64,000 nucleotides of DNA, taken from assembly GCA_902826815.1 (NCBI GenBank), contig CADEGF010000016.1, positions 46,243 to 110,242 on the forward strand, written 5' to 3'. This document shows positions 5,778-61,028 of this stretch, one piece after another. The stretch's first letter is position 1. Each line of letters begins with the position of its first letter. A program made the translations under genes and the position numbers. The notes under the pieces were generated by a model, which worked only from the letters and a program-made list of their open reading frames with translations, was not told where the DNA came from and made no database searches. The DNA comes from an uncultured Mycobacteriaceae bacterium. Lineage in GTDB: Bacteria; Actinomycetota; Actinomycetes; Mycobacteriales; Mycobacteriaceae.

Positions 5778-5849
5778 GGTCCTGTCGGACGACATCGCCC
5801 GGGCGCCGTTCGAAACCTTCATCGACGGTTACTTCGTTGTCCCGAGAAT

Positions 5850-5891
5850 GCGGGGAGATCACGACTCTTCACGAAAAGGCGATCTCCCCGC
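5850..5891. terminator. strong stem-loop between convergent genes
   Basis: Perfect 11-bp inverted repeat GCGGGGAGATC (5850-5860) and GATCTCCCCGC (5881-5891) with a 20-base loop. It lies in the 190-base gap between the rightward MFS gene and the leftward aldolase gene. An outer GAATGC/GCATTC pair extends it with a bulge. There is no U-tract, as is common in mycobacteria. A bidirectional terminator fits its position; nothing else is seen in the gap. Confidence 0.6.
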
Positions 5892-5968
5892 AGTTTCGGC
5901 ATTCAGGGCGAGAGTTAGAAGCCGCAGCTACTACGTCGGAGTCGTTGCACCGCAAGCGAACCTCTTCT

Positions 5969-31503: not shown

Positions 31504-31563
31504 GCGAACGTTCCTTACCGGTCGAAATTTTCGTGATTTCTCGACTGGTACGGAACGTTAGCG
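31504..31563. repeat. 60-bp palindromic repeat, copy 1 (intergenic)
   Basis: Left arm GCGAACGTTCCTTACCGGTC (31504-31523) and right arm GACTGGTACGGAACGTTAGC (31543-31562) are inverted copies with few mismatches. The arms flank an AT-rich centre. A second 60-base copy, in the opposite orientation, lies inside the ABC transporter gene at 60251-60310. This copy begins 4 bases after the GT39 stop and is the main content of the 31417-31567 gap. Confidence 0.8.
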
Positions 31564-31567
31564 CTCG

Positions 31568-33505
31568 TTAGGTGAGGCGTGCGGTCAGGTCGTAGACCTT
31601 GGTCCCGCCGACGTCGGCCGGGGTGAAGTTCTGCTTTACCCAATCGGTGATCTGGCTGGCGGCGCCGGACTCGCGATGGCCTGGCGGGCCGAAGTGCTCA
31701 CCCTCGACGAAGTACCTCACCTCGTGATCGGCGACATAGCCCTTGAACTGTGCCGGCGTCGGTGAGTTGTCGCTTCCGGTGAATCCACCGATCGCCATGA
31801 TCGACGCACCGCTCTTGAGCTCGAGACTGCTCGCCCCCATCGAACCGATAGTCGCTGCGGCCCAACGGTTGTCATGGCCCTGCAACAACTCGATCAGCGC
31901 GGCGTTCTCAGCCATCCGACCGCCTGGTCCGCCCTGACCGGAGTGTCCGAACGGGTCACCTTTGTTCGGCCCCGATGTGGAGATCGGGCCGTTGTGCGCG
32001 GTCGCGACCGTCTCGACCGCGTAGGCGGCTGGCGCCGCCACTCCGAACAAGATCGCCGCTGCCGCCAGCGCTGCGACCGCACGGCCACGTCTGTGTGCGC
32101 CCGCCGCCAGCAGAACCGCGATGACGATCGAGCCTGCGAGCACGATCCAGCGCAGTGCAGGCAGCCAGTCGGGCGTGCGATCCAGCAGGACGTACGTCCA
32201 CACCCCCGTCGCCGCCGACATCGTCGCCAGCACGAGGCGCGACCACAGCCGGTCCCTGATTCGCCACAGCTCTCGCACCGAGATTCCCACCAGCGCCGCG
32301 ACCGCCGGAGCAAGGGCGACGGTGTAGTACGGGTGAATGGTGCCGTCCATGAAGCTGAACACCGCGGCAGTCACCAGCAGCCACCCACCCCACAACAGCA
32401 GGCTGGCACGGAGCCGGTCCGCTCGGGCGGCCTTGCGGGTCATCCACAGCACGGCCACCAAACCGATCAACGCAGCCGGAAGCAGCCACGACGCTTCTGT
32501 ACCCATCGACTGGCCGAACATCCTGCCGATGCCCGGCTCGCCGCCGAAGAAGATGTTGCCAGCGCGGCCCGGGCCGCCACCGCCGCCTGGTCCGCCGCCG
32601 GGAGGACCGTTGCCCGGCCCACCGCCGGGGAAGCCTCCGCCTGCGATGCGGTCAATGCCGTTGTAGCCCAACGCCAGCTGCAACAGGCTATTGGACGTCG
32701 AGCCGCCGATATAGGGCCGTGAGCCCGCGGGCCACAGCTCGACGAGAGCCAGGTACCAGCCCGCCGACACAATCATCGCCACACCGCCGGCCATCAGCTT
32801 CCACACCCGCTGCCACATCCCGATGGGCGCGGCCACCAGGAACGCCAGTGCCAGCCCCGGTGTGACCAGGAATGCCTGCAGCATCTTCGTCAGGAACGCG
32901 AAGCCAAGTGCGGTACCCGCCAACACCATCCACTTGGTGCCGCCCGTCTCGGTCGCGCGCACCACGTAATACGCTGCGACCACCATCAGCAGAACCAGCA
33001 GCGCGTCTGGGTTGTTGAACCGGAACATCAGCGCCGCCACCGGCGTCAGCGCGAGCGCCGCTCCCGCGATCAAAGCCGCACCGGATCCGCTGCAGCGACG
33101 CACCGCGGCGTACAACACGGCGACCGCGCCGACACCCATCAGCGCCTGCGGCAACAACATGGTGAACGCGCTGAAGCCGAATAGCCTGCCGGACAACACC
33201 ATCACCCAAAGCGCGGCCGGCGGTTTGTCGACGGTGATGGCATTGCCCGCGTCGTGCGATCCGAACAGCCAGGCCGTCAGGTTCTGGGTGCCCGCCTGCG
33301 CGGCGGCCGCGTAGTAGTCGTTGGCCCAGCCGGACGAGCCAAGCCCCCACAGATACAGCACCGCCGTGGCCACCAGCAGACCGAGCAGCGCAGGCGTTTC
33401 CCAGCGCGGCCGTCCCGCAGGCGCTTCAGGTGTCACCAACACCGGGACATGTGGGTCAGCGGTCAGCGTCATCGATTGCATTCCTTCGTCTTTCGGGTGA
33501 GTCAT
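31568..33505 (-). CDS. GT39-family (ArnT/YkcB-like) membrane glycosyltransferase, copy 1
   Basis: GT-C glycosyltransferase of 645 residues with about 12 membrane segments. It uses a polyprenyl-phosphate sugar as donor. Extracytoplasmic loop 1 carries the acidic catalytic site candidate WANDYYAAAAQAG, followed by ITVDKPPAALW. A long Gly/Pro-rich loop lies near residues 290-315 (GGGFPGGGPGNG). The C-terminal soluble domain begins near GSMGASSLELKSG. The ATG overlaps the GT2 stop by four bases. The acceptor is unknown: cell-wall glycan, lipid or protein. The partner GT2 probably makes the lipid-linked donor. Confidence 0.87.
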   Translation of the reverse strand: MTHPKDEGMQSMTLTADPHVPVLVTPEAPAGRPRWETPALLGLLVATAVLYLWGLGSSGWANDYYAAAAQAGTQNLTAWLFGSHDAGNAITVDKPPAALWVMVLSGRLFGFSAFTMLLPQALMGVGAVAVLYAAVRRCSGSGAALIAGAALALTPVAALMFRFNNPDALLVLLMVVAAYYVVRATETGGTKWMVLAGTALGFAFLTKMLQAFLVTPGLALAFLVAAPIGMWQRVWKLMAGGVAMIVSAGWYLALVELWPAGSRPYIGGSTSNSLLQLALGYNGIDRIAGGGFPGGGPGNGPPGGGPGGGGGPGRAGNIFFGGEPGIGRMFGQSMGTEASWLLPAALIGLVAVLWMTRKAARADRLRASLLLWGGWLLVTAAVFSFMDGTIHPYYTVALAPAVAALVGISVRELWRIRDRLWSRLVLATMSAATGVWTYVLLDRTPDWLPALRWIVLAGSIVIAVLLAAGAHRRGRAVAALAAAAILFGVAAPAAYAVETVATAHNGPISTSGPNKGDPFGHSGQGGPGGRMAENAALIELLQGHDNRWAAATIGSMGASSLELKSGASIMAIGGFTGSDNSPTPAQFKGYVADHEVRYFVEGEHFGPPGHRESGAASQITDWVKQNFTPADVGGTKVYDLTARLT

Positions 33506-57351: not shown

Positions 57352-59094
57352 ATGCTCCTGGCCCTGCTTCGGCGTTATGTGCGGCCGTATCGCGGGCCGC
57401 TCGCTGCCGTCGCGGCGCTCCAGGTGGTCAGCAATATGGCTTCGCTGTACCTGCCGACGGTCAACGCGGCGATCATCGACGACGGGGTTGCCAAGGGCGA
57501 TACCGAAACCATCGTCGAACTCGGCGGGGTGATGCTGGCCGTCACGGCACTGCAGGTGCTGTGCGCCGTCGGCGCGGTGTACTACGGCTCGCGCGCCGCC
57601 ACGGGGGTCGGTCGCGATCTGCGGTCGGCAATCTTCCACCACGTGACGGGCTTCTCGGCCGCCGAGACGGCGCGGTTCGGGGCCCCGTCGCTGCTCACCC
57701 GCACCACCAACGACGTCCAGCAGGTTCAGCTGCTGGTGCAGTTGACCTGCACCATGCTGATCACCGCACCGATCATGTCGATCGGCGGCATCGTCATGGC
57801 GATACATCAGGACGCCGGGCTGTCATGGCTGCTGCTCGTCAGCGTGCCTGTGCTCGCATTGGCCAACTATTGGATCGTCCGGCACCTGCTGCCGATATTC
57901 CGCAGCATGCAGAAGCTGATCGACGGCATCAACCGGGTGATGCGCGAACAGTTGTCGGGCATCCGGGTGATCCGCGCGTTCGCGCGAGAGCCGTTCGAGC
58001 GCAGCCGATTCGCCGAGGCGAACCAGGCCCTGTCGGATACTGCGCTGACGGCGGGCCGCTGGCAGGCGTTGATGCTGCCGGTGACCACGCTGGTGATCAA
58101 CATCTCCAGCGTCGCGCTGATCTGGTTCGGCGGAATGCGAATCGACGCCGGCCAGATGCAGGTGGGCTCGCTGATCGCGTTCCTTTCCTACTTCATGCAG
58201 ATTCTGATGGCCGTCCTGCTCGCGACTTTCATCCTGGTTCTCATTCCGCGCGCAACCGCGTGCGCGGAGCGGATCACCGATGTGCTGTCCACCGAGCCGG
58301 CGATCACCAGCCCCGTCGAACCGATTCGGCCGGATTCGGTCGACGGCGCGGTCAGCCTGCGCGACGCCACATTCAGCTATCCGGGCGCTGATCGGCCTGT
58401 GCTGCAGGATGTTTCGCTGACGGCGCGACCCGGCACCACCACCGCCATTGTCGGATCGACAGGCTCGGGGAAGTCGACGCTGGTATCGCTGATCTGCCGA
58501 ATGTACGACGTCACATCGGGGGCTGTACAGGTCGACGAGATCGACGTGCGCGACTACGACACCGAGCAGTTGTGGTCGGAGATCGGGCTCGTACCGCAAC
58601 GGGGATACCTGTTCTCGGGAACCGTCGCCGACAACCTCCGCTATGGCAAGGCCGATGCGACCGACGACGAGATGTGGGAGGCGTTGCGGGTGGCGTCGGC
58701 GGACGGCTTCGTCCGCTCCCACGCCGACGGCCTCGACATGCGGGTCGCCCAGGGCGGCATCAACTTCTCGGGCGGTCAGCGGCAACGGCTGGCGATCGCG
58801 CGTGCCGTCATCCGCAAACCGGCGATCTACCTGTTCGACGACGCGTTCTCGGCACTGGACGTGCACACGGACACGAAAGTGCGCTCCGCGCTGAGCGAGG
58901 TTTCCGCCGATGCGACGGTTATCATCGTGGCCCAACGGATTTCGACGATCGCCAAGGCGGATCAGATCATCGTGATCGACGACGGCAGGGTCGTCGGCAC
59001 AGGCACGCACGAATCGCTGCTGGCCGACTGCCCCACCTACGCCGAGTTCGCAGACTCGCAGTCGGTGGGCGCAGGGGTTGGGAGTGACGGGTGA
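57352..59094 (+). CDS. half ABC exporter with degenerate catalytic site (Rv1273c-type)
   Basis: 580 residues: six membrane segments (1-310), then an ATPase domain. Walker [10 protein letters not shown], signature [13 protein letters not shown], but Walker B reads [11 protein letters not shown]. The catalytic Glu is replaced by Asp, which marks the degenerate subunit of a heterodimeric exporter. Its partner follows with a GTGA overlap. Rv1273c equivalent by position. Confidence 0.92.
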
Positions 59095-61028
59095 CTCAGC
59101 CACTGGGACGGCCCATCCGCGGCATGGTGCAGGCGCCGACGGAGCGCTCCCGCGACTTCAAGGGCGCCGCGATCCGGTTGGTGAAACGGCTGACCCCGCA
59201 GCGCGGTCCGACCGTTGCGGTGATCCTGCTCGGTGTCGGCGGCATCGCGATCGGCGTGATCGGCCCGCGAGTCCTCGGGCACGCAACTGACCTGTTGTTC
59301 AACGGGGTCATCGGCCGCGGGCTGCCCGCGGGGCTCACCAAGGACCAGGCGATCGCGGCCGCACGGGCGCGCGGCGACAACACATTCGCCGACCTGCTCT
59401 CGGGTATGAACGTCGTTCCTGGCCAAGGAGTGGACTTCGCGGCGGTCGGGCGCACGCTTCTGTTGGCTCTCGGCTTGTACCTGGTTGCCGCGCTGCTGAT
59501 TTGGATTCAGGCTCGGCTACTGAACGTGGTGGTGCAGCGAACCATGGTCGCAATGCGGTCCGACGTCGAGGACAAGCTGCACCGGCTTCCGCTGGCGTAC
59601 TTCGATACCAGGCAGCGCGGCGAGGTGCTCAGTCGCGTCACCAACGACATCGATAACGTCTCGACGTCTCTGTCGATGACGATAAGCCAACTGCTGACGT
59701 CGCTGCTGACCGTCTTCGCCGTGCTGGTGATGATGTTGACGATTTCGCCGCTGCTGACCCTGCTCACCGTCGTCACCGTGCCGTTGTCGTTGTACGTGAC
59801 CCGCGAGATCGCGCGCCGATCGCAGCGGCTGTTCGTTGCGCAGTGGACCAACACCGGGCGGCTCAACGCCCATATCGAAGAGACCTACAGCGGCTTCACC
59901 CTGGTCAAGACGTTCGGTCACCGCGAACTCGCCGAAGAGCAGTTCCGCGAACGCAACGCCGATGTGTATGACGCCAGCCGCGGCGCGCAGTTCTTCTCCG
60001 GGTTGGTCGGGCCTGCCACCACGTTCATCGGCAATCTCAGCTATGTCGCGGTCGCGGTGGTCGGCGGCATCCAGGTGGCAACGGGCCAGATCACCCTCGG
60101 CAGCATTCAGGCCTTCATTCAGTACGTGCGACAGTTCAACCAGCCGCTGACCCAGGTCGCGGGCATGTACAACACGCTGCAATCGGGGGTGGCCAGCGCC
60201 GAGCGGGTTTTCGATCTGCTCGACGCCGAGGAGGAGTCGCCCAACCTCGCGCGAACGTTCCTTACCAGTCGAGAAAACGCCGAGAATTCGACCGGTACGG
60301 AACGTTCGCGTGGTGTCCGCGTGGAGTTCGAGAGCGTGAACTTCGCCTACCAGCCGGATACACCGGTCATCGAGGACCTGTCGCTGGTCGCGGAACCCGG
60401 CAGCACGGTGGCGATCGTCGGGCCGACGGGCGCGGGTAAGACCACGCTGGTCAACCTGCTGATGCGGTTCTATGACGTGGACTCGGGGCGGATCCTGGTC
60501 GACGGCGTCGATATCGCGACGGTCAGCCGCGAGTCGCTGCGGTCGCGCATCGGCATGGTGTTGCAGGACACCTGGCTCTTCGGCGGCACGATCTTCGACA
60601 ACATCGCCTACGGCAGGCCCGACGCGCACGAGGACGAGGTCATCGAGGCTGCCAGGGCCGCCTACGTCGACCGGTTCGTGCACACGCTGCCCGACGGTTA
60701 CGACACGAGGGTGAGCGACGACGGCGGCAACATCAGTGCAGGCGAGAAGCAGCTGATCACCATCGCCCGCGCGTTCCTGGCCCGCCCGCAGCTGTTGATC
60801 CTCGACGAGGCGACCAGTTCGGTGGACACCCGAACCGAGTTGCTCATCCAGCATGCGATGGTGGAGCTGCGCCGAGACCGGACCAGCTTCATCATCGCCC
60901 ACCGGTTGTCGACGATCCGCGACGCCGACCAGATCCTTGTGATGGAGGAGGGCCGGATCGTCGAGCGTGGCAGTCACGCCGAGCTTCTGGCGCGACGGGG
61001 CGAATACTGGGCAATGGCGCAGGCGTAG
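59091..61028 (+). CDS. half ABC exporter carrying an in-frame repeat (Rv1272c-type)
   Basis: 645 residues: six membrane segments with a long first loop ([15 protein letters not shown]), then an ATPase domain. Walker [10 protein letters not shown], Walker [13 protein letters not shown] with a normal catalytic Glu, but the signature is NISAGEKQL instead of LSGGQ. This is the reciprocal half of the degenerate site with the previous protein. Residues about 388-407 ([20 protein letters not shown], approximately) are encoded by the 60-bp palindromic repeat between membrane and ATPase domains. Rv1272c equivalent by position. Confidence 0.92.
60251..60310. repeat. 60-bp palindromic repeat, copy 2 (inside a gene)
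   Basis: Left arm GCGAACGTTCCTTACCAGTC (60251-60270), right arm GACCGGTACGGAACGTTCGC (60290-60309). Length 60 keeps the frame open and adds 20 codons. It matches copy 1 (31504-31563) best when one copy is reverse-complemented. Confidence 0.8.

Follow-up and report, generated by a model that had tools for sequence, protein, structure and literature searches.

A family of short palindromes dispersed through mycobacterial genomes, here termed F1, probably provides the cognate ends or sites for a small element that carries a nuclease gene, solitary copies (solos) being its dispersed non-coding form. Together they look like an apparently undescribed palindrome-plus-nuclease mobile system, the palindromes of which can settle in frame in proteins. 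The palindromes bracket a nuclease gene at some sites, stand alone at others and are missing from empty counterparts; arm sequence is linked to that of the accompanying nuclease, arms are better kept than loops, and some copies lie in frame within coding sequence. The association of nuclease and palindrome is very likely and the mobility of palindromes or units likely, while the sequences are most economically explained if the nuclease is also the enzyme that acts.

The window from which the analysis started comprises 64,000 nucleotides of the genome of an uncultured Mycobacteriaceae bacterium (G000). An F1 palindrome of 57 bp (60252..60308) lies there inside a plus-strand gene for an exporter-type ABC transporter (59091..61028). 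Read on the plus strand, its 55-bp core (60253-60307) consists of a left arm of 20 bp (60253..60272), a variable loop of 15 bp (60273..60287) and a right arm of 20 bp (60288..60307) that complements the left with few mismatches; an outer C and G complete the 57 bp. An intergenic twin (31505..31561, core 31506-31560), one arm of which has a terminal A, not C, is separated by 6 bases from the 3' end of an ORF on the minus strand (31568-33505). The first-pass annotation had placed a palindrome at both positions, and both are confirmed; the two 60-base stretches are identical at 45 of 60 positions. The plan of 20-bp arm, 15-bp loop and 20-bp arm is that of the aligned F1 copies generally. Among 108 located copies, the core measures exactly 55 bp in 100, the outer C is present in 107 and the outer G in all, and the GTAG or CGTC tag of REPs occurs in none. 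A known RNA family was also considered for the palindrome, and Rfam gave no match within the window. A further strong palindrome of 58 bp, with arms around TGCGGGGAGATC, is located at 5842-5899 of the window; no other of its kind was seen in the DNA examined.

The element recurs both in this genome and in relatives. Six copies were found in G000, five by a 24-base two-arm pattern (at most three mismatches) and one longer copy with an internal duplication. Across 396 genomes of the genus, the same pattern detected F1-type copies in 18, with a maximum of 17 per genome, and its reversed form, used as a control, returned no match, which rules out chance similarity. The located copies number at least 108 in the 18 genomes, at about 71 distinct sites; this is a lower bound, since for several genomes (e.g., G231, G089, G161, G255, and G330) copies were counted among the matches listed, and it excludes two chance matches removed beforehand (L183, L078:3083) and includes one (L175, in G011) that belongs to a second family described below. 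Among the named carriers are M. stellerae, M. elephantis, and Mycobacteriaceae bacterium 1482268.1, and arm variants are specific to a genome, such as GAACGTTGATTACC in G011 and GAACGTTGGTTACC in G089. One one-arm match in each of two unrelated MAGs was taken as chance. With gene calls that are ORF-based throughout, 43 of 62 copies examined fall outside any long GC3-biased ORF. Plasmid matches were seven and weak; no phage match was found, ruling out a phage origin.

In five genomes (G065, G067, G207, G231, and G201), a single gene lies between two F1 copies that are spaced about 960-970 bp. Its product matches REase_MTES_1575 (1.4e-10 at locus L071, 2.1e-7 at L089) and, below cutoff, DUF559, while its N-terminus is recognized by AbiEi models (PADLOC, 5e-12). 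The MTES_1575/DUF559 domain presumably belongs to the PD-(D/E)XK, Vsr-like nuclease class, and a D...EYDGxQH-type motif, detected with one pattern in 35 of 45 members of the nuclease family, is what we take to be the PD-(D/E)XK active site. A PDB sequence search with the nuclease returned no significant relative (best E 0.46). At L071 and L089 there was no Y1 hit, no HUH/Y1 tyrosine transposase and no AbiEi-AbiEii gene pair, only the single gene between its palindromes. Association with a REP-type (HUH/Y1) transposase, for which the first-pass annotation had advised a search, is not supported: the bracketed gene instead encodes an AbiEi-like protein with an MTES_1575/DUF559 nuclease domain, and REP tags are lacking.

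The nuclease belongs to a family with 3-12 members per genome (E<=1e-25) in 10 genomes of the genus, G000 included. Forty-five loci were examined, namely 15 of the 19 hits to the nuclease protein in G000 and 30 of the 79 hits in the 17 other F1-positive genomes. A palindrome score of at least 9 was reached on at least one side in 40 of these and on both sides in 20 (for G000 alone, on at least one side in 14 of the 15 fetched loci), the palindromes being similar in size and different in sequence. At that threshold, 30 of 45 upstream and 30 of 44 downstream segments scored; at a score of at least 11, the figures were 25 of 45 and 21 of 44, against 5 of 600 random G000 segments, a contrast somewhat flattered because the random segments were not matched for intergenic position. 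Upstream and downstream arms of one nuclease gene are 0.82 alike (20 loci), whereas arms of different loci are 0.50 alike. Protein identity correlates with arm similarity over 40 of the 45 loci (Spearman 0.345; none of 999 permutations as high), although the set includes orthologues, which are not independent. Additional mycobacterial nuclease loci scored at least 9 upstream in seven of seven and downstream in six of seven cases; outside the genus, 6 of 20 loci scored at least 11 on one side or more, G404 strongly on both. Four nuclease genes carry an internal stop codon and have a decay-like appearance: L223 (G366), L224 (G064), L226 (G011), and L243 (G201).

These figures bear on whether the palindromes might be ordinary MITEs or REPs that owe their movement to an unrelated transposase and carry the nuclease gene as a passenger. 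Dispersal, presence and absence across species and copies in genes would all fit such an origin, as would solos left as orphans where a genome has no matching cassette, but the same nuclease family is bracketed in the F1 units read, arms track the nuclease over 40 loci, no GTAG/CGTC tag is present, and five empty-site alignments show no target duplication; we consider the passenger explanation very improbable. None of the 15 G000 nuclease loci examined has F1 arms (best, 10 of 18 matches), and among 15 genomes with at least two F1 copies, a matching cassette was not found in six, in which the hits examined were 15 of 19 (G000), 2 of 7 (G011), 1 of 1 (G143), 1 of 2 (G170), 2 of 6 (G366), and 2 of 3 (G375); G000 and G375 are draft assemblies, in which a cassette interrupted by the end of a contig might escape notice.

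Comparison of flanks revealed three site states. At what we call locus 2, a palindrome-gene-palindrome unit is present in G067, G207, and G231, a solo in G366, and nothing beyond 18 bp in G011 or 21 bp in G064, where both flanks align. Locus 1 holds a unit in G065 and is empty in G366 (flank identity 93-95%), and at its solos in G011 and G201 the left flank alone aligns. Only three F1 copies are common to G065 and G366. Seventeen sites private to one or the other were queried: five have clear empty counterparts (86-92% identity), at three the palindrome in the partner genome comes from a different family, and at two it is a chimera that joins an F1 arm to a GAACGTGAACTTGTG-type arm, while five aligned too poorly to be read and two (L064, L311) were left out of the alignment. 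None of the five empty-site alignments displays a target-site duplication, and at three of them the junction carries CGAACG, which is the palindrome's own end and could be either a target or an excision footprint. Palindromes of other families also stand at loci 1 and 2, where relatives carry F1 (L253 on contig C87 of G000, L283 on C48 of G065), as if the same gaps attract several palindrome families. G067 and G207, by comparison, have 12 of 13 and 12 copies in common, and movement there must therefore be slow.

Arms, loops and flanks have changed at different rates. In 12 orthologous copies of G067 and G207, identity is 98.75% in arms, 88.3% in loops and 91.9% in flanks, so that these arms outlast their surroundings and are not decaying; three G065/G366 pairs give 95.8, 86.7, and 94.5%, with arms barely above flanks, and the full set of 45 genome pairs of 55-bp copies, whose members are not independent of one another, yields 90.9, 70.4, and 86.2%. 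In pairs involving G011 or G372, arms are sometimes less alike than flanks. Inside one genome, arms are 92-99% identical and loops 52-74%. The ABC-gene copy differs between G011 and G067 by three symmetric pairs of arm changes and no asymmetric one; over all pairs, 40 arm changes are symmetric and 84 asymmetric. Since arms are better kept than loops and often change symmetrically, they are constrained or homogenised while loops drift. A resident F1 nuclease seems dispensable for such upkeep, because six multi-copy genomes, in which arms are well kept, lack a matching cassette among the loci examined; unless the losses are recent, these genomes count against simple nuclease-driven maintenance.

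Constraint on arms would also be expected if an AbiEi-like regulator bound the palindromes, with the copy upstream of the nuclease gene serving as an operator for autorepression and the solos as regulon or chromosome-organising sites kept by selection. The AbiEi-like N-terminal domain, the palindrome upstream of 30 of 45 nuclease genes, the retention of arms over loops at orthologous sites with symmetric changes in G011, and the uniform 55-bp core of 100 in 108 copies are all consistent with this. Downstream copies are as frequent as upstream ones, however, some solos lie within coding sequence, the locus 2 site is between ORFs that point at each other, and units and solos come and go between flanks that otherwise align. 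An operator or regulon role as the whole account is unlikely.

A second family, typified by locus L239 in G207, differs from F1 in the layout of its arms. At L239, the outer arms of the two flanking palindromes match each other at 22 of 22 positions, as do the inner arms, and the two halves of one palindrome are 0.65 alike, giving the order A|B - gene - B|A. L237, L238, L231, and L225 are similarly arranged, their outer arms differing in type from the inner ones; L237 and L238 probably represent the same orthologous cassette as L239, and at L228 only the outer arms agree. With a two-arm pattern for this family, 22-47 arm matches per genome were obtained in G207, G067, G231, G366, G011, and G065 (control, 0-1) and none in G201. 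Of 40 paired copies in four fully listed genomes, 18 were A|A, 22 A|B and none B|B. Some A|B copies form tandem arrays, including five, 90 bp apart, beside the G207 nuclease gene, and copies of this family can therefore be oriented quasi-palindromes.

Such a layout would arise if the solo were a target at the centre of which the nuclease or a partner works, in the manner of homing or att-like insertion, so that a unit with its own inner arms turns A|A into A|B - gene - B|A. The loci just described and two chimeric solos, each with one arm from either family, argue for this route. Against it, sites without any palindrome exist, and over 32 scorable loci outer and inner arms match no better than arms within a palindrome (Wilcoxon P 0.38), the effect being carried by the L239-type subset; that test omitted 20 of 52 loci (no two scorable palindromes, or short flanks) and kept L119, L122, L235, L245, and L389, which are seemingly mis-detected on one side. 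The 18 A|A, 22 A|B and no B|B copies also count against it, and 13 of the 22 A|B copies are away from listed nuclease hits, so that A|B may simply be the end of the element. As a general account, centre insertion seems to us improbable. It and the regulatory role are the main rivals to the preferred reading, and both could be partly true.

Two further palindrome families were encountered in G000. One, marked by GAGCAGACGC, has six copies in the 849 kb examined, on contigs C3, C8, C49, and C59 (L196, L200, L211, and L217), and two of its copies flank the nuclease paralogue L128, one per side. The other, marked by GATTTCGGCGCG, occurs on C8 and C49 (L198:6381, L202:3483, and L209:11364), and no nuclease partner for it was seen among the 15 G000 loci examined.

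The first-pass annotation had viewed the element as a dispersed REP-like palindrome tolerated in frame within proteins, and this view is upheld. In the ABC transporter of the window, it occupies about residues 388-406, within the linker between the membrane domain (residues 60-353) and the ATPase (residues 428-576). Searches of 61 genomes, G000 included, gave 60 with a match, and among the 30 best orthologues, which were fetched, the insert is present in those of G000 and G011 and missing from the other 28; comparison of flanks added G067, G201, G207, G231, and G372. The insert is therefore not private to G000 but orthologous across seven genomes, and is open in the same reading frame in all six genomes translated. 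An addition of 20 codons had been proposed, and the element does span about that many, but the net gain is smaller: measured from motif to motif, the linker has 50 residues in G000, 53 in G011 and 36-48 at the other 28 loci. In G372, the ABC-gene copy is the sole F1 copy found and has a decayed look, with several asymmetric arm changes. A second clear in-frame insertion lies in PrmC of G067 and G207 (G067 ORF: TIGR03534, 217.5 bits, cutoff 199.1), and two further F1-bearing ORFs are coding-like but less certain, one in G170 and G375 and one in G000, G170, and G375. Judged by sequence comparison, the ABC-gene copy is old, and the F1 element is older and stranger than an ordinary REP.

In the preferred reading, the complete unit would consist of palindrome, one gene and palindrome, the gene encoding a predicted protein with an AbiEi-like N-terminal domain and an MTES_1575/DUF559 nuclease domain, and solos would be its dispersed non-coding form, comparable to the REPs around a RAYT gene. 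The nuclease would bind the arms, probably as a dimer and perhaps via the AbiEi-like domain, and would cut in or beside the palindrome; repair of the break, or transposition, may then copy whole units, half-palindromes or solos elsewhere. The ABC-gene copy of the window would be a solo of long standing, which came to rest in a linker able to tolerate it and, we propose, persisted there because this frame runs through the palindrome without a stop. Set against this reading are the six multi-copy genomes with no matching cassette among the loci examined, the lack of a visible target-site duplication in five empty-site alignments, the slow movement in G067 and G207, the nearly equal retention of arms and flanks in three G065/G366 pairs, the lack of phage matches and the weakness of plasmid ones, and the lack of a significant PDB relative. 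More tentatively, these observations may define a new class of mobile or site-specific DNA system in bacteria, in which palindrome families of about 57 bp are spread and maintained by a fused AbiEi-like/PD-(D/E)XK nuclease that acts at the palindrome, and not by an HUH transposase; arms would co-evolve with the nuclease, families would swap arm by arm at common sites, yielding chimeras, and insertions would supply new peptide segments to housekeeping proteins. If this is true, a widespread uncharacterised nuclease family would acquire a partner in DNA and a function open to testing, and palindromes of the REP kind would have arisen also with an unrelated enzyme. It would further supply matched enzymes and natural sites for studies of specificity, show that PrmC and an ABC exporter have harboured in-frame palindromes for a long time, and offer a system for asking why palindrome families persist and exchange halves.

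The open-licence literature searched contained no description of a palindrome-nuclease system, nothing on DUF559 together with palindromes and mycobacteria or on any two of MTES_1575, DUF559 and AbiEi together, and nothing on REPs in mycobacteria. By title, the open-licence DUF559 literature held nothing on repeats, and among the matches listed there was neither a title on in-frame palindromic repeats of this kind in mycobacteria nor a mycobacterial one for the arm sequences as text strings; the only match for a selfish Vsr-like/DUF559 nuclease concerned methylation in Caulobacter. Several known systems nevertheless offer comparisons. Rickettsia palindromic elements are inserted in frame in unrelated proteins and are also intergenic. 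F1 resembles them in its in-frame copies (ABC gene in seven genomes, PrmC in two, and the two less certain ORFs) but differs in that most copies examined lie outside long ORFs, in its linked candidate enzyme and in its mycobacterial host. As with homing endonucleases, a nuclease-type gene is placed within a long site or amid its copies, and the site also exists without an occupant. The F1 arrangement differs in that full palindromes stand on both sides of the gene, no phage match was found and the nuclease is a predicted one; a gene interrupting its own site, as A|B - gene - B|A, is seen at a few loci, whereas in F1 A equals B. With the type IV toxin-antitoxin system AbiE, the F1-unit protein shares an AbiEi-like domain, but the units read have a single gene in which a fused nuclease domain replaces the second gene. 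In anatomy F1 resembles REP/RAYT and TIR/TIRYT systems, in which short palindromes are scattered, some in genes or arrays, and the gene for the cognate enzyme has copies, or else long inverted repeats, on its flanks (PMC3733652). F1 likewise comprises short, multi-copy palindromes, but its unit is 57 bp against 20-40 bp for a REP, it has no GTAG or CGTC tag, and its candidate enzyme is an AbiEi/MTES_1575-DUF559-type protein where REP/RAYT has an HUH tyrosine transposase. As both this transposase, at the bracketed gene, and the tag are absent, the F1 system acts like a REPtron without being one, and is best read as a REP/RAYT-like system that would employ an unrelated nuclease.
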